Source: Acidovorax sp. (GTDB taxonomy: Bacteria > Pseudomonadota > Gammaproteobacteria > Burkholderiales > Burkholderiaceae_C). Taken from it: a stretch of 64,000 bases of DNA. Every line of letters starts with the position of its first letter. Position 1 is the first letter of the stretch. Made by a program: the position numbers and the translations under genes. Below, piece after piece: positions 53,141 through 63,720 of this stretch. The stretch covers positions 1 through 64,000 of the forward strand of contig JADMJR010000210.1 of assembly GCA_018780365.1 (NCBI GenBank). Reading direction: 5' to 3'. Below the pieces are notes generated by a model. The model did no database searches and had not been told where the DNA came from. It saw nothing but the letters and a program-made list of their open reading frames with translations.

Positions 53141-53175
53141 ATTCTGTCGAAACGCTATTTTTAAGTCAAGCGTTA
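53141..53175 (-). promoter_or_regulatory. Leftward early promoter/operator
   Basis: Minus strand TAACGCTTGACTTAAAAATAGCGTTTCGACAGAAT: TTGACT-17-CAGAAT with AACGCT/AGCGTT arms. Confidence 0.7.
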
Positions 53176-53203: not shown

Positions 53204-53704
53204 ATGAGTTCGACAGACCCATTTGTTCTGGCCTTGCAGCGGCTTTGTGTCAAGGTCGGCGGGCATGACAAGCTCGCGTCGAAGATCGGGGCCAGCGGCC
53301 AGTCGATCTACCAAATCGTGTCCGAAAGAAAGCTGCCTAGCGGCAATGCAAAGAGTGTTGGGCCAGCTCTACGCGCAAAGATTTCCCAGGCGTACCCGGA
53401 TTGGCTGAAAGACCCCGTAGCCTTAATCGAGCCCGCGGCCCCCTCTACCACCATCGCCCAAGCGCTGGAGGTGGTGGCTGCGGCACTTTCCGCCTCCGAC
53501 GACCTGACGACCGACCAGGTGCGACCCCTACTGTCCCGACTCGTTGATGAGCCAGGCCGCGCTTCCGAGATCGTTCCACGCCTTTCCAAACTGCTGTCAT
53601 CAAAGCCGGGAGCAGCAATGGAAACTGCCGCCTTCGCAGGCAAGCCAAAGAGTGAATCGACACCATCCCCGGTTGTCACAGCAGGAGAATTTGTTAAACG
53701 ATGA
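53204..53704 (+). CDS. HTH repressor-like protein
   Basis: QRLCVKVGGHDKLASKIGASGQSIYQIVSERKLPSGNAKSVGPALRAKISQAYPDWL. Confidence 0.65.
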   Translation: MSSTDPFVLALQRLCVKVGGHDKLASKIGASGQSIYQIVSERKLPSGNAKSVGPALRAKISQAYPDWLKDPVALIEPAAPSTTIAQALEVVAAALSASDDLTTDQVRPLLSRLVDEPGRASEIVPRLSKLLSSKPGAAMETAAFAGKPKSESTPSPVVTAGEFVKR

Positions 53705-54597
53705 GCGCCCCCATCGACTACCAGCCCAACAACATGGCCATAGAGCTATACCAGTCGGGGCAGTTCATCACTTCTCACGATTGGACGCACGGGCGCGATG
53801 GGAATGTCAACCCGGTTCTTCATGGCCAGTTTTCTACTGAAGCTGGCGAGTATTTCGACGGCTACGCCAAGCCGTTCGCCATCGGCAATCACGTCGATGC
53901 GACCGTAATGCTCAATGAGGTGACGGGGTGGCTACTGGCTCGCGCATGCGGCCTTCCAGTGCCACAAAAGGCTTTTTTCATTCCTCTCACGCTTGCCGAA
54001 TTGCCAGCCTATGGCGGGACCGCCTCTCTTCCACCGGCGGACGAAAACGGCCACATTCTGAGCTTCGTCACACAAGCGGTGGCAAACACAGCAATCAGAG
54101 CTGTGTACGACACAGAGTTGCTGGTGAAAGAGCAGTCGCAGTGGTCGCGATGCGACGATACGATCACTTTTGACGAAGGTGTTGCGAACACGGATCGGCA
54201 CGCATTCAACCTGCTGCGAAGAGCGTCTGGAGACTTTGTTCTCATTGACCACGGCTTCCTTCTGCGGCAGCCGAACGTGCCGTATCCATCCCACTGGGAT
54301 GCGAGCTTTCTGGATGAGTATTTGGGGCACTCTTTCAGCAACGTGCTGCACCACAACACCTACACATGGCAGGGTAGAAACGCTCCATCCATCAGGACGG
54401 CCGGTTGCACGGCGAGCACTGCTTTTGCAGAAAAACTGGGGGCCGCCCTGCGGGCAACCCTGTTCGAGATAGCCTTCTGGAGCAGCAAATTGTTGCCAGG
54501 CCGAAGTGCAAGTTGGCTCCAGTTTCTGTACAGTCGCACTCAGCAGCCTCGGATGAATTCCCTCATGGCCAAGCGTTACGGCGTGCTGCCACTCTAA
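53701..54597 (+). CDS. HipA-like protein kinase
   Basis: GYAKPF; NEVTGWLLARACGLPVP; GVANTDRHAFNLLRRASGDFVLIDHG. Confidence 0.7.
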   Translation: MSAPIDYQPNNMAIELYQSGQFITSHDWTHGRDGNVNPVLHGQFSTEAGEYFDGYAKPFAIGNHVDATVMLNEVTGWLLARACGLPVPQKAFFIPLTLAELPAYGGTASLPPADENGHILSFVTQAVANTAIRAVYDTELLVKEQSQWSRCDDTITFDEGVANTDRHAFNLLRRASGDFVLIDHGFLLRQPNVPYPSHWDASFLDEYLGHSFSNVLHHNTYTWQGRNAPSIRTAGCTASTAFAEKLGAALRATLFEIAFWSSKLLPGRSASWLQFLYSRTQQPRMNSLMAKRYGVLPL

Positions 54598-54598
54598 G

Positions 54599-55495
54599 AT
54601 GCTTGAACTATTCGCCACTCGAAAGCCAGCGCAGGCAAATCAGGTCACCGGCCATTGGCGGGCGGTGCGGATATGCCTCGACCTGGCCACTCAAGAGTGG
54701 CTGAATGTTGGGGTTGTCTTGCGCACATCCGGCGGCGAAACGCACCACAGACTTCTCACCAACTTTGCCGGGTTTCGCTGCATCTATGACGACGATGCGG
54801 CGGATGCCGCGCGCTTCCTCTTGGACCAAGCGGAATTTGCAATCGAAGCGGAGAAACCATTTCCTACAGGGTGGAATGTGAGCTTCGGCCCCGAGAAATT
54901 TGTTCGCGGCAACACCATCGATTCAATTCTGACGGGTTTGTTTTCTCGCCTCGTGCCCCTTGGGCGTCACCAACTGGATCCATCGGCAAGAATCGATAGG
55001 GAAGACCACCCTCACGCCACCCAGAATGTGCGCGTGGAAGTCCGCAAGCTTCTCACCAAGCACCTGCAAATCGCCAAAAGCGCTGCACCTGAGTTTTGGT
55101 ATGCCCGCCCCGTCCCAATGCACAGAGATGGGGCTGTAATCAAAATGGATGTTCAGATCGTAGCGAACAACACCCACGGCATCGTCCACGGGGCGATTGC
55201 ATCCGCTTGGTACAAGACAAGCTATCACCGATCGGCATCACTCAATCAAGCGGTGAACGCAGTCACCACGGCGTGCGAAGCCTTCCCCGGCAGTCAGAAC
55301 GTCTTGTACATCCTGCGCCCTCCTGAGAAGGTGAGCTCCTTATCTGATAGCGACTACGAAGCCATTGATCTCGACATCGAATCAAGTCGTTGGCTTCTGC
55401 AGAAGCATGGCGCTGAGCTGAAAATTGCAAAGGAAGTGCCTGACATCGCTCGGACAATCCTGGAAGACTTGGAGTTGATGCCTGACGTGCATTGA
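54599..55495 (+). CDS. DUF3037-like protein coupled to the HipA-like kinase
   Basis: LDLATQEWLNVGVVLRTSGGETHHRLLTNFAGFRCIYDDDAADAARFLL resembles the DUF3037 core. Confidence 0.5.
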   Translation: MLELFATRKPAQANQVTGHWRAVRICLDLATQEWLNVGVVLRTSGGETHHRLLTNFAGFRCIYDDDAADAARFLLDQAEFAIEAEKPFPTGWNVSFGPEKFVRGNTIDSILTGLFSRLVPLGRHQLDPSARIDREDHPHATQNVRVEVRKLLTKHLQIAKSAAPEFWYARPVPMHRDGAVIKMDVQIVANNTHGIVHGAIASAWYKTSYHRSASLNQAVNAVTTACEAFPGSQNVLYILRPPEKVSSLSDSDYEAIDLDIESSRWLLQKHGAELKIAKEVPDIARTILEDLELMPDVH

Positions 55496-55530: not shown

Positions 55531-55582
55531 CGCAGATGCGGGTTTTTTTTGCCCCACCAGCCACCTCCAGGTGGCTTTTTCA
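55531..55582 (+). terminator. Tandem intrinsic terminators
   Basis: CCCGCAGATGCGGGTTTTTTTT and AGCCACCTCCAGGTGGCTTTTT. Confidence 0.8.
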
Positions 55583-55819: not shown

Positions 55820-55946
55820 GCCGCGACTGTGCGCCGACGGCGTGACGGGCGCAAGTCCACCGCGGTGCCCGCCTCGCGCGGTTTTTTTTGGTTTGAAGCG
55901 CCGTTACTGACCAATGGGTCATAAATAAACGACAGAATAACTAGCG

Positions 55947-55980
55947 TAACGCTTGGATAAATATGTCGTTTCGCTAGAAT
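55947..55980 (+). promoter_or_regulatory. Rightward early promoter/operator
   Basis: TAACGCTTGGATAAATATGTCGTTTCGCTAGAAT: TTGGAT-16-TAGAAT flanked by CTAGCG...CGCTAG; similar to 53141-53175. Confidence 0.75.
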
Positions 55981-55984
55981 TCAC

Positions 55985-56376
55985 CCATCGCAGCAAAACG
56001 CAGCGACAGGGTGAGCGGATCGGCGGTCACCACGGAGTTCTTGCAGCAGGCACGGCTGGGTAAACGTAGGGCACCGCAGGCGGTAGCGGGATAGAAAAGA
56101 TCGTCGGTGCGAAGGCTAGTAGCGCTCTGCCCCTGGATGGGATCAGGCAACGCGAACGAGATAGGGCTCATGGGAGGAAACAACCATGTCGCCAATGCAC
56201 CTCGAAGTCCACACCCTGGGGCTAAGTACGGGGTTGAGGCAAACAGGGATGCCAAGAACAGAAAAGCCCAGCGCGCAAGCGCTGACAGGCCGGAAAGCAA
56301 CGGCCAAACGGTGCCCTTCGCAAGAAGGGCAAAACCAGAGCCTTGCGTGCAGGGCTGTGGTTTTCAAGGAGCTCAC
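55985..56376 (+). ncRNA. Candidate structured leader RNA/ncRNA of the rightward early operon
   Basis: No supported CDS; series of perfect hairpins including AGCGC-GCAA-GCGCT (56270-56283), GGCCG/CGGCC (56288-56305), GCCCTTC-GCAA-GAAGGGC (56313-56330), AAAACC...GGTTTT (56331-56364). Confidence 0.55.
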
Positions 56377-56595
56377 ATGAACTTCACCGTCAAGGAAGTG
56401 CGCATCAGCGAGATACGCCCAGGAGACACCGTTGAGCACAACGGCGCGATCTGCACGGTTTGCAGGAACAACATCAAGACAGGGGGCTTCATGGGCCGCA
56501 CGCTTTTTGGCGACTCGTACCGCCTTGGCATGGACCCGGTGCGCAAGCTGCAGATTCTGCAAGCGCGGCCGACCCCACTTCCTGTCTGCGCATAG
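56377..56595 (+). CDS. Small conserved-looking phage protein
   Basis: AAGGAG Shine-Dalgarno; MNFTVKEVRISEIRPGDTVEHNGAICTVCRNNIKTGGFMGRTLFGDSYRLGMDPVRKLQIL. Confidence 0.65.
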   Translation: MNFTVKEVRISEIRPGDTVEHNGAICTVCRNNIKTGGFMGRTLFGDSYRLGMDPVRKLQILQARPTPLPVCA

Positions 56596-56945
56596 ACAGG
56601 GCAACTGCCGTCCCGGCCCAGCGCCGGGGCCATCACATCACCCTACTGTCCAAGCCAAGGCTCACGCACCGCGCGGGACATTTGGCAGCGGGGTGATGTG
56701 ATGGCGACGACAGCAAGCGAGTCAGGCGTCCCTGCCTGTTTCGCCATCAAGAGCGGGTCGGGGGTTCCTGGCCGTGAGCGCAGTCGGTGGAAGCCCGACA
56801 CCATTTCGGGGCGGCAACGCCGAGCGGATCGCCCCCGCGACACCTTGCCAGAGGCCTCGGTGTTCGTTGGCAGAGCCGACTACGGGAACCACCGCACGCC
56901 GGGCTGAGAAAGCCTCGCCGCCCCACCCTCTCCCTCCCCTCCTGC
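56581..56945 (+). ncRNA. Second candidate structured RNA segment
   Basis: CCTGTCT-GCGCAT-AGACAGG; CCCGGC-CCAGC-GCCGGG; 15-bp perfect inverted repeat GCCATCACATCACCC (56629-56643)/GGGTGATGTGATGGC (56691-56705); GGCG-GCAA-CGCC (56810-56821). Confidence 0.45.
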
Positions 56946-56960
56946 CTTGCGCAGGGGTTC

Positions 56961-57018
56961 GCCCACCTCGCGTGGGCTTTTTTATTCCCCACCAGCCCAC
57001 CGCCGCGTGGGCTTTTTC
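56961..57018 (+). terminator. Two tandem intrinsic terminators with identical stems upstream of the next early gene
   Basis: GCCCAC-ctcgc-GTGGGC-TTTTTT and GCCCAC-cgccgc-GTGGGC-TTTTT. Confidence 0.8.
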
Positions 57019-57678: not shown

Positions 57679-57683
57679 ACCCA

Positions 57684-57706
57684 GCCCGCACCACGCGGGC
57701 TTTTTT
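57684..57706 (+). terminator. Intrinsic terminator between co-directional early genes
   Basis: GCCCGCACCACGCGGGCTTTTTT. Confidence 0.8.
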
Positions 57707-59963: not shown

Positions 59964-60118
59964 TGCCATGGACTGCCCCACCGGAAAGGTGCAGCACCGA
60001 CAAGCCTCTCGTTCCATACCGCTGCGACTTTTGCGGCATGCGGCATGTGGGGCAGAGCAACGGCATGAAACGCCGGATCAAGACCGTCTACGACAACCAC
60101 CAATTGAGGTTCACATGA
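59963..60118 (+). CDS. Small hypothetical phage protein
   Basis: MPWTAPPERCSTDKPLVPYRCDFCGMRHVGQSNGMKRRIKTVYDNHQLRFT. Confidence 0.5.
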   Translation: MPWTAPPERCSTDKPLVPYRCDFCGMRHVGQSNGMKRRIKTVYDNHQLRFT

Positions 60119-61182
60119 ATGAAACGACAGAACTGATTGTTCTCCCGCCGCAGGAGTCCGTGCGCGCGGTGTTCACCACGCCGCTTGGCCTGGAGCCCTA
60201 CCTGCAACAGATCCGGGCTCACCTCGATACCTTCGAGGCTGACGTGTCTACCAAGAAGGGCCGCGATGCCATCGCGTCCATGGCCTACAAGGTCGCCAAG
60301 GGCAAGACCGCTCTGGACAACCTGGGCAAGGCCCTGGTCGATGAAATGAAGCGCGAGCCCGCCATGGTGGACGCAGAGCGCAAACGGATGCGGGACACCA
60401 TGGACCAGTGGAAAGAGGAAGTTCGGGCGCCGCTCACCGCGTGGGAAGAAGCCGAGGAAGCGCGGCAGGCCCGCCACAAGGCCGGGATTGAGTGGTTCCA
60501 GATCCGCGCCAAGGAATACCACGACCTTGACCTGCAGGAACTACGCACCAGCCTTGCGGAGGTGGAAGGCAAGGTGGTTGATGCGGCCTGGGAGGAATTC
60601 GAGGCCGAAGCCCACCGCGCCAAGGCGAAGGCCGTTGAAGCACTGGCCGCTGCAGTCGCTGCCCGTGAGAAGCACGAAGCCGAGCAGGCCGAACTTGCCA
60701 AGCTGCGCGCCGAGGCCGCCGCCCGTGAGCAGAAAGACCGCGAGGAGCGCATTGCCCGCGAGGCTGCAGAGAGGGCCCAGCGCGAAGCCGAAGCCAAGGC
60801 CCAAGCCGAGCGCGAAGCCGCCATCAAGCGTGAGGCAGAAGCCGCAGCCGCTGCAGAGCGCCGCGAGCTGGAATTGAAGCTGGCTGCGGAGCGTGCCGAG
60901 CGCGAGAAGGCCGAGGCAATCCAGCGCGAGCAGCAGGTCAAGGCAGACGCCGAACGCCGCGAAGCCGAAGCGGTCGCAGCCGAGCAGCGCCGCGTGGCCG
61001 CCATCGCCGAGGCCGAGGCCAAGGAGGCCAAGCGCCGCGAGGCCGACAAGGCCCACAAGACCGCCATCAACCGGGCCGCCCTCGACGCCTTCATGGCGGG
61101 AGGCATGACCGAGGAATGCGCAAAGCTTGCAGTCACCCTGATCGCCAAGAAGGCCATTCCGGCAGTTTCCATCACCTACTGA
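60115..61182 (+). CDS. Coiled-coil phage protein upstream of recombination genes
   Basis: Long Ala/Glu/Arg coiled coil following MNETTELIVLPPQESVRAVFTTPLGLEPYLQQIRAHLDTF. Confidence 0.65.
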   Translation: MNETTELIVLPPQESVRAVFTTPLGLEPYLQQIRAHLDTFEADVSTKKGRDAIASMAYKVAKGKTALDNLGKALVDEMKREPAMVDAERKRMRDTMDQWKEEVRAPLTAWEEAEEARQARHKAGIEWFQIRAKEYHDLDLQELRTSLAEVEGKVVDAAWEEFEAEAHRAKAKAVEALAAAVAAREKHEAEQAELAKLRAEAAAREQKDREERIAREAAERAQREAEAKAQAEREAAIKREAEAAAAAERRELELKLAAERAEREKAEAIQREQQVKADAERREAEAVAAEQRRVAAIAEAEAKEAKRREADKAHKTAINRAALDAFMAGGMTEECAKLAVTLIAKKAIPAVSITY

Positions 61183-61190
61183 GGAAGACC

Positions 61191-61973
61191 ATGAACGCAA
61201 CAACTACTGCGGAAGCTGCAGTGCTTGACCTGGAGCCCATTGAGCGAACTGCCCAGCCGCTTGCCTTGCAAGGAACTGGCGCAATCGCGGCGAACTCACC
61301 GGCCGCCATGATGATGCAGGCCATGTCGCAGGGCGCCGACCTGGCCCAGATCGAAAAGATGATGGACCTGCAAGACCGTTGGGAGCGCAAGGAAGCCGAG
61401 AAGGCCTACAACGCGGCTTTCGCCGCCTTCAAGGCCGAGGCCGTGCGCATCGTGAAGGGGCGCAAGGTCACAGACGGCCCGCTGCGCGGCAAGGAATATG
61501 CGGAGCTGCATGACGTGGTGGATGCCGTGACGCCAGCTCTATCCCGCCATGGACTCAGCACTGCCTGGAAGCTGACGCGCGACGAAAAGGATTGGCTGGA
61601 AGTTACCTGCACGCTCAAGCATGTCGGCGGCCATTCCGAGTCGGTCAGCATGGGCGGCCCGCCCGACGCCGGAGGCGCAAAGAACGCCCTGCAGGCACGG
61701 GCCAGCACCAAGAGCTACTTAGAGCGCTACACCCTGAAAGCCATCTGTGGCGTGGCCGAGGGTGGCGATGACACCGATGGCAACCCGCCCGCGCCCAGGG
61801 CTCCGCTTGAACTGATCGCTGCAGCGCGTGATGCAGCAATGGGCGGATGGAAGTCACTCGCGGCCTTCATGAAACAGCGAACTCAAGAAGAGCGCACCCA
61901 ACTCCAGTCGGAGGAACACGCCTTGAAGAAGGCGGCAAAGGCGGCGGATGCCGCGAAGGAGCAACAGCAATGA
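61191..61973 (+). CDS. ERF family single-strand annealing protein
   Basis: MDLQDRWERKEAEKAYNAAFAAFKAEAVRIVKGRKVTDGPLRGKEYAELHDVVDAVTPALSRHGLS. Confidence 0.85.
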   Translation: MNATTTAEAAVLDLEPIERTAQPLALQGTGAIAANSPAAMMMQAMSQGADLAQIEKMMDLQDRWERKEAEKAYNAAFAAFKAEAVRIVKGRKVTDGPLRGKEYAELHDVVDAVTPALSRHGLSTAWKLTRDEKDWLEVTCTLKHVGGHSESVSMGGPPDAGGAKNALQARASTKSYLERYTLKAICGVAEGGDDTDGNPPAPRAPLELIAAARDAAMGGWKSLAAFMKQRTQEERTQLQSEEHALKKAAKAADAAKEQQQ

Positions 61974-62617
61974 TCCACCATAACCACGAACAAGGCAGCG
62001 AAGCCTGGCTGGCCGCGCGCAAGGGATGCATTACCGGCTCGCGTTTCAAGGACTGCCGCGACAAGCTCAAGAGCGGCGGCCCGTCCAAAGCCTGCATTGC
62101 CTACGCGCAGGACACTGCCCGCGAACGTATCGGAGGCTTGGCGCCCGCCAAGTTCCAGAACGCAGCGATGCGCACCGGCACCGAGCAAGAACCGCTGGCC
62201 CGCTTGGCCTACGAGCGCCGCACCGGCAACCTGGTGGAAGAAGTCGGCTTCTTCACCACCGAAGACGGCCTTTTCGGCCTCAGCCCGGATGGCCTGATCG
62301 ATGACGACGGCGTGCTGGAAATCAAAACCATGGTTTCCAGCGACACCCTGTTCACTGCCGTGGCGGATGGCGACCTGTCGGCCTACATGGACCAGTGCCT
62401 GGGCTACCTGTGGCTGCTTGGCCGCCAGTGGGTGGATCTGGTCCTGTGGGCGCCAGACCTTGACCTGATGGTGATCCACCGCATCCACCGGGAGGAAGAC
62501 GCCATCGAGAAGCTGGAGTCGGACCTGATGGCTTTCGCCCGAATGGTGAAGCAGTATGAGACCACGCTGCGCGACGCCATAGCAGCGAACAACGAACAGG
62601 CCCTGCAGGCCGCATAA
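61970..62617 (+). CDS. YqaJ-type viral recombinase/exonuclease
   Basis: EQGSEAWLAARKGCITGSRF...GTEQEPLARLAYERRTGN...FGLSPDGLIDDDGVLEIK. Confidence 0.85.
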   Translation: MIHHNHEQGSEAWLAARKGCITGSRFKDCRDKLKSGGPSKACIAYAQDTARERIGGLAPAKFQNAAMRTGTEQEPLARLAYERRTGNLVEEVGFFTTEDGLFGLSPDGLIDDDGVLEIKTMVSSDTLFTAVADGDLSAYMDQCLGYLWLLGRQWVDLVLWAPDLDLMVIHRIHREEDAIEKLESDLMAFARMVKQYETTLRDAIAANNEQALQAA

Positions 62618-62625
62618 GGACACAC

Positions 62626-63078
62626 ATGCCCAAGATGATCGGAATGATGCGCCTCGGGCGCGATGCCGAGTTGCGCTACACGCCCAACAATGAGCCCGTC
62701 ACCAACCTCTCGCTGGCCTACGCTCACGGCAAGGCCGGCCAGGACGGCAAGCGCCCTACCCAGTGGATTGATGCCACGCTGTGGGGCAAGCGCGCCGAGT
62801 CGTTGACGCAGTACCTCACCAAGGGCGGGCTGCACTGCTTCACCCTGGACGAATTGAACATTCAGACGTTTCAGAAGCAGGACGGCAGCACCGGCACAAA
62901 GCTGGTTGCGCGGGTTCTGGATGTTGAGTTGGGGTCGCGCCAGGATGCGGCCCCTGCCGCCACACCAGCACCAGCCGCCAGACCAGCGCCGCCACCGCAA
63001 CGGCAGGCCCCAGCGCCCGCACCGCGTGGCTCCACGGGGTCTGGGTTTGACGACATGGATGACGACATCCCGTTCTGA
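62626..63078 (+). CDS. ssb: Single-stranded DNA-binding protein
   Basis: MIGMMRLGRDAELRYTPNNEPVTNLSLAY; acidic C-terminal tip DDMDDDIPF. Confidence 0.9.
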   Translation: MPKMIGMMRLGRDAELRYTPNNEPVTNLSLAYAHGKAGQDGKRPTQWIDATLWGKRAESLTQYLTKGGLHCFTLDELNIQTFQKQDGSTGTKLVARVLDVELGSRQDAAPAATPAPAARPAPPPQRQAPAPAPRGSTGSGFDDMDDDIPF

Positions 63079-63100: not shown

Positions 63101-63123
63101 GCCACCCGAGAGGTGGCTTTTTT
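63101..63123 (+). terminator. Intrinsic terminator between co-directional early genes
   Basis: GCCACCCGAGAGGTGGCTTTTTT. Confidence 0.8.
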
Positions 63124-63144: not shown

Positions 63145-63720
63145 ATGAACATCACGATCAACAACCCCGTCTTCAAATTTCATTCCGCACCGGCCATGAC
63201 CAGCGCTCTGTTTGCATCGCTGCTGCGCGGCAACGATCCGGGCGAGTCAGCTCCAGCCGCAACCGTGGCAGGGCGCCCACAGATCGGCGAGCACTGGGAA
63301 GGCCAGGGCGGCATCTACGCCGGAGACTTCCGCACGGGCGATGGCCCCATCTACGGCCTGATCGTTGCGCCCGAGCAGGACATTGGCCGCGCTACCTGGG
63401 GGGCGAATGGCGAGCGTGACCTGTCCGACTGGGATGGCCTGGAGAACACCCGCCGCCTGGTCAACGAGTGCCCCGCTGCAAAGCTGGCCGCTGGCTACAC
63501 CCGCGACGAGCACACCGACTTCTACCTGCCAGCGCGCCGCGAGCTGCAGCTGGGCGCAGCCAACCTGCACGACACGTTTGGTAAGGAGAGCTGGTACTGG
63601 ACCAGCACGCCACGCGCTGAGCACTACGCGTGGGCGGTCGATTTCGAGCACGGCAGCACGGGCCTCTACACCCGGAGCATCGAGTTCCGTGTCCGCCCCT
63701 TCCGCAGATTCGTCTATTGA
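63145..63720 (+). CDS. DUF1566-like (C-type-lectin-fold-like) phage protein
   Basis: FYLPARRELQLGAANLHDTFGKESWYWTSTPRAEHYAWAVDFEHGSTGLYTRSIEFRVRPFRRF. Confidence 0.6.
   Translation: MNITINNPVFKFHSAPAMTSALFASLLRGNDPGESAPAATVAGRPQIGEHWEGQGGIYAGDFRTGDGPIYGLIVAPEQDIGRATWGANGERDLSDWDGLENTRRLVNECPAAKLAAGYTRDEHTDFYLPARRELQLGAANLHDTFGKESWYWTSTPRAEHYAWAVDFEHGSTGLYTRSIEFRVRPFRRFVY

Follow-up and report, generated by a model that had tools for sequence, protein, structure and literature searches.

Antitermination elements of rRNA operons are arranged in the order boxB-boxA-boxC, with boxA as the key element, sufficing for factor recruitment (PMC10250234). The Nus complex can also act on genes other than those for rRNA (PMC5725501), and put RNA brings about antitermination without proteins (PMC9378689).

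The leader described here (55981–56376, + strand) belongs to a prophage on a 76.8-kb Acidovorax contig; the stretch of 64,000 nucleotides analysed as a whole is referred to as the window. It is a non-coding structured leader directly after an early promoter, and its 5' part comprises the following elements:

55988–56006, + strand: stem-loop I, UCGC-A-GC / GC-A-GCGA with an A-rich loop, supported by covariation
56010–56031, + strand: stem-loop II, in which GGUGA / UCACC enclose an inner stem and the hexaloop GAUCGG, supported by folds and covariation
56037–56048, + strand: boxA slot, degenerate here (GTTCTTGCAGCA), occupied by a host-rRNA-type boxA in most relatives

The layout resembles that of HK022 putL, which likewise has two stem-loops at the extreme 5' end of the early left transcript and terminators behind them; here, too, no dedicated protein was found. 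The leader follows the promoter of an Erf/exonuclease/SSB operon and thus occupies the early-left-transcript position, as in put. In contrast to putL, the phage module is shorter (45 nt vs ~70 nt) and includes a boxA slot, and no second copy is present at the other early promoter of the window. When HK022 was searched with R1, a covariance model for the 5' module, no similarity to putL/putR emerged, the best hit (E 2.5) falling within the roi coding sequence. The protein-free action of put involves the beta' zinc-binding domain.

As in most leaders of this family, the boxA of the lambdoid nutL/nutR sites lies close to where the early left operon begins, with terminators behind it. The nut sites differ in that the nut boxB hairpin follows boxA, whereas the leader hairpins precede the boxA slot; moreover, no N gene was found and only one copy exists. 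Host rRNA leaders share two stem-loops near the start, one of them with a GAUCG/A-type loop, followed by the same boxA variants as in most of the related leaders. Unlike them, the phage version drives an early operon, its two hairpins stand in a different order, boxA is degenerate in class A leaders (the window and about 14 others), and a candidate boxC, a G-rich stretch pairing with a trailer, was seen in class D leaders only.

Genomic context and conservation of the leader

Leftward genes, transcribed from a promoter at 53169–53141, encode a cro-like repressor, a replication initiation protein and a DnaB-like helicase. Driven from the promoter at 55953–55980, the rightward (pL-like) early operon opens with a gene for 72 aa and goes on to encode an Api92-like protein (57031), Erf, an exonuclease and SSB:

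56366–56595, + strand: Shine-Dalgarno sequence (SD) AAGGAG (56366–56371) and first gene (56377–56595, 72 aa), phrog_3623 with a weak EF-P KOW-like match
60118–63078, + strand: distal early genes (Erf 61191, exonuclease 61964, SSB 62626)

No comparable 5' module was detected in the leftward early operon, and the window holds a single copy.

Re-reading of the sequence confirmed the hairpins and coordinates that a preliminary description had reported for 55981–56376. Its view that this stretch lacks a convincing CDS was likewise borne out: every frame of the homologues is interrupted by stops, which rules out a coding reading. The 396-nt leader folds more stably than shuffled sequences on the + strand (z −2.96, 0/100), with a weaker signal on the − strand (z −1.68).

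Matches to the leader DNA were obtained in 10 other genomes among the relatives searched, all of the same genus (a few of them short or due to chance), and further relatives come from IMG/VR, Pseudorhodoferax and Curvibacter. BLASTN against 50,697 phages and 72,556 plasmids retrieved no relevant match. Of the 48 genomes belonging to the genus, 12 gave a match to the covariance model of the 5' module (10 of them strong); across the order it matched 2 of 399, i.e. the window's own genome and one weak match. Weak matches to this model (about 25–27 bits) were L203, L204, L223, L231 and L232; promoter context is absent from L203 and L204. An Rfam scan of the window and a permissive scan of the region produced nothing credible.

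Promoter and tandem stem-loops at the 5' end

55941–55977, no strand assigned: operator-like inverted repeat CTAGCGTAACG / CGTTTCGCTAG, flanking the early promoter
55953–55986, + strand: early promoter TTGGAT-16-TAGAAT with the 6-nt discriminator TCACCC, delimited by comparison of 27 homologous promoters

The two arms of the operator-like palindrome (55941–55951 and 55967–55977, 11 nt each) are 91 % complementary, and a related motif (AGCGTTTCG) is located at the leftward early promoter. The early promoter proposed previously has a weak −35 element in the window; it was upheld by equivalent promoters at the same site in the homologues, which are of the TTGACA-17-TAATAT type with mostly good −35 elements. 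In total, 31 leaders were anchored on a conserved A preceding stem-loop I, and a promoter was obtained for 27 of these. The discriminator up to this A measures 6–7 nt in 26 of the 27 promoters and 5 nt in the remaining one, for which reason TCACCC (55981–55986) is most likely promoter DNA rather than part of the RNA. From this promoter anatomy, the transcript probably starts near A55987. An outer stem TCACCC/GGGTGA is accordingly unlikely as RNA, and GGGTGA pairs instead with the downstream TCACC; the suspicion voiced in the preliminary description that the outer arm might precede the start site is supported by the 27-promoter comparison.

For stem-loop I, 21 compensatory cells were counted among 30 sequences, and its covariation score was reached in 0/500 shuffles; together with the outer stem the count is 31, in a set that included L203 and L204, both of which were left out of the 30-sequence set. 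Among 13 sequence types, the inner stem of stem-loop II shows 11 compensatory cells (0 of 500 shuffles), while the AU(C/U)G loop is kept. Since the leader sequences are mutually related, these statistical tests are not fully independent. The outer GGUG:CACC pairing of stem-loop II is nearly invariant, its changes amounting to wobble pairs and one mismatch; in seven leaders folded from +1 it was closed or nearly so, and most of these formed two clean tandem stem-loops. Covariation thus shows that two tandem stem-loops are formed by the first ~45 nt of the predicted RNA.

The A-rich loops of stem-loop I recall boxB, and together with boxA and the operon terminators they would fit a lambda-type nut site, at which an N-like protein that escaped recognition binds stem-loop I and acts with boxA and Nus factors. 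This we regard as quite unlikely, given that the hairpins lie upstream of boxA, that the loop of stem-loop I differs in length between leaders, that only one copy exists in the phage and that no small basic ORF is shared downstream of the leaders. The last point also means that a conserved N-like gene was not detected behind the leaders; hypervariable N-like proteins diverge fast and may escape a similarity search.

Host-type boxA and resemblance to rRNA leaders

Because the bin that represents the host genome is incomplete and lacks 16S, host boxA sequences were taken from relatives, from whose 16S leaders and spacers a boxA weight matrix was built. A host-rRNA-like boxA was found in 25 of the 31 leaders, located 51–58 nt from the start of the module and with a score that some 1 % of controls at most attain (enrichment against random stretches, p 8e-19). 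In the window the slot holds a degenerate boxA, whose score is matched by 5.8 % of controls; class A leaders, including the window, carry a GTTCTTGCAGC-like sequence in the boxA slot. Phage boxA variants track the host variants GGTCTTTAAAAA, GTTCATTAAAAA and GATCCTTAAAAA, and L220 and L222 have different 5' hairpins yet retain GGCTCCTTAAAAA. The TTCTT of the window may alternatively pair with AAGAA at the end of the class A domain, a long-range UUCUU:AAGAA closing helix for which one compensatory case was found in class A.

In rRNA leaders of the host family, a near-+1 hairpin with GAUCG/GAUCA loop and covarying stem is mostly followed by a second hairpin and then boxA. A GAUCG-type hairpin with covarying stem thus stands upstream of boxA in phage and host; this comparison was made post hoc, and the likeness of the loops is only suggestive of an rRNA-type plan. 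We know of no other phage operon with the rRNA order of hairpins followed by boxA.

Terminators behind the leader and proposed mechanism

56961–56977, + strand: intrinsic terminator GCCCACCTCGCGTGGGC-TTTTTT
56994–57013, + strand: intrinsic terminator AGCCCACCGCCGCGTGGGCT-TTTTC
57683–57701, + strand: intrinsic terminator AGCCCGCACCACGCGGGCT-TTTTT
63101–63117, + strand: intrinsic terminator GCCACCCGAGAGGTGGC-TTTTTT, in the same operon

The terminator scan that predicted these sites detected overall seven strong intrinsic terminators in the leader's operon (56977, 57012, 57700, 63117, 67620, 71652 and 73905), whereas 0.025 are expected from shuffles of 56.4–64 kb. A further one on the + strand (55543) lies just upstream of the promoter, and the − strand of the 77-kb contig contains one. 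In 125 kb behind 28 leaders, a strict scan counted 60 terminators on the transcribed strand vs 5 on the opposite strand, some of them near-duplicates and with the opposite-strand control biased because terminators follow gene direction. Such a pattern is expected of an operon relying on antitermination. No sigma70-like promoter was detected on the + strand at 51.5–63.9 kb by a scan that also missed the early promoter itself.

Taken together, the leader is probably a cis-acting antitermination element of the host-factor, rRNA type, with a put-like layout and without being a member of the put or nut families. Once repression lifts, transcription would start near A55987, as judged from promoter anatomy, and the first ~45 nt fold into the two covarying stem-loops, the second with its GAUCG-type loop. 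A host-rRNA-like boxA follows at fixed distance, as sequence comparison shows for the family, albeit degenerate in the window. The nascent hairpins together with NusB/S10 and other host Nus factors would modify RNA polymerase without a phage N, and the modified polymerase would read through the leader, which is not translated, and past the intrinsic terminators that lie among the early genes.

Against rRNA-type antitermination speak the degenerate boxA of the window, the leftward operon devoid of the module and the intrinsic nature of the terminators counted, rRNA-type complexes being best known for counteracting Rho-dependent termination. Nevertheless, the earlier proposal of a cis-acting RNA, put-like in role and not by homology, is the best-supported reading: the stem-loops covary, terminators punctuate the operon, no N-like gene was found and the model had no HK022 match, in agreement with the claimed absence of put homology; transcript and antitermination are what we infer from these features. 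The preliminary description had overlooked the host-type boxA, the overlap with the discriminator and the modular leader family.

Class A domain and exchangeable cassettes

56044–56258, + strand: class A structured RNA domain, supported by covariation
56112–56162, + strand: near-invariant core AAGGCTAGTAGCGCTCTGCCCCTGGATGGGATCAGGCAACGCGAACGAGAT, delimited by identity compared with the flanks
56214–56233, + strand: covarying hairpin CCCUG / CGGGG (class A helix 6), with CG to GC in 5 and CG to UA in 3 sequences
56238–56253, + strand: hairpin GGCA / UGCC (class A helix 7), followed by conserved AAGAACAG

Among class A leaders, 34 pairs are predicted for the domain and are formed to 97.5 %, with 19 compensatory cells (0/500 shuffles). 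The core (52 columns) has a mean identity of 97 % vs 48–70 % in the flanking parts. The helix GCACCG/CGGTGC (56071–56110) is present in the window as described previously but was rejected as a conserved element, since it is missing in L002, L003, L004 and L139.

Other leaders harbour different structured cassettes, singly or chained, between similar ends. In class D leaders (L010, L032, L163, L168 and L187), a 20-bp helix joins the sequence behind boxA with a downstream trailer and encloses unrelated inserts; it recalls the leader-trailer helix of rRNA (PMC10250234), and only in this class is a G-rich stretch, a candidate boxC, paired with the trailer. A recurring cassette with a good SD and a 4-codon frame (e.g. 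AAGGAGAACACATGACCCCCAACTGA) resembles a minigene and is found in L006, L125, L148, L168, L170 and L179.

The near-identity of the class A core next to variable flanks, the swapping of middle cassettes between fixed ends, the unrelated first genes and the lack of an implied effect on any one gene would suit an early phage RNA or cassette chain that acts mainly in trans by binding a target of the host or of a defence system; production of this RNA would then be all that the 5' module serves, the mRNA being secondary. We consider this unlikely, as the leader continues into an SD and gene 298–473 nt downstream without a convincing terminator of its own; in addition, an antisense role towards rRNA was dismissed, the longest complement to one host rRNA locus being 10 nt, i.e. 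at chance level. The same core allows for a bolder and rather doubtful extension of the antitermination reading, in which class A leaders constitute a new RNA class, a factor-light antiterminator in which polymerase would be modified by the near-invariant core of 51 nt instead of boxA; a whole group of betaproteobacterial phages would then need nothing but RNA to control their early genes, with interchangeable cassettes between fixed ends.

The blocks are clearly mosaic, being shared in short stretches, and might be regarded as mere recombination joints of mosaic phages without RNA function. Several helices with compensatory changes and loops that are kept while their stems change render this exceedingly improbable.

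Hairpins at the ribosome binding site and second non-coding stretch

56270–56330, + strand: three hairpins in direct succession, two of them capped by GCAA tetraloops; the third hairpin (56313–56330) recurs in relatives
56331–56364, + strand: long hairpin with a 1x1 mismatch, immediately 5' of the first SD, an architecture shared with relatives
56596–56960, + strand: second structured non-coding stretch (z −3.0), a mosaic of pieces also present in other phages

The final stem, noted previously to abut AAGGAG, proved to be one instance of a double hairpin (a small and a long one) directly 5' of the SD; of the 18 leaders with placed first gene, 17 have it (mean z −4.5). Its stem sequences differ between leaders, and the long hairpin usually contains a 1x1 mismatch; in some leaders, namely those of class A that resemble L137 and L211, the folded stretch takes in the long hairpin alone. 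A terminator at the end of the leader was rejected, the U-run not being conserved. SD and start of the first gene are situated 298–473 nt into the leaders for which this gene could be placed. The likely role of the double hairpin is to hold the ribosome site accessible or to shield the end of the mRNA.

This conserved pre-SD structure, the variability of the first genes and their closure by the second non-coding stretch and terminators could point to a post-transcriptional leader that sets translation and stability of a swappable first gene, i.e. an expression cassette for accessory genes. This is improbable, for it leaves the two 5' stem-loops, the fixed distance of boxA from +1 and the downstream terminators unexplained.

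The second stretch (56596–56960) includes a 25-nt inverted repeat (56629–56653/56681–56705). The first gene is private to the window's phage, and pieces of both flanking non-coding stretches are shared with leaders of other phages.

Implications and further observations

If the rRNA-type reading is correct, these phages adopted the antitermination signal of the rRNA operon for early transcription without an N protein, and the leaders would offer a natural system outside enterobacteria for probing the puzzling boxB hairpin of rRNA operons. They would also define a family of structured RNAs in phages that is large and so far unlisted.

The Rfam family RF02917 (Burkholderiales-2) matches a cassette right after boxA in L012 (1576–1649) above the gathering score, but antisense to promoter, boxA and SD. 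Cassettes of this type recur, in the same opposite orientation, in two more boxA leaders (L220 and L222); in the window, the Rfam scan gave no RF02917 match above the gathering score. Burkholderiales-2 may therefore have been modelled on the wrong strand, and would then be a fragment of such leaders.

Additional genes accompany the early region. Between a YdaS-like regulator and the terminator at 55543, two genes (53701–55495) encode one product with a weak kinase-like match and one of 298 aa without Pfam match, possibly accessory or defence genes. Inside the early operon, genes like those of diversity-generating retroelements were found in the window (63145–63720) and in L218 (204–1926), the set comprising a Lcl_C-type target, a bAvd-like protein and a reverse transcriptase.
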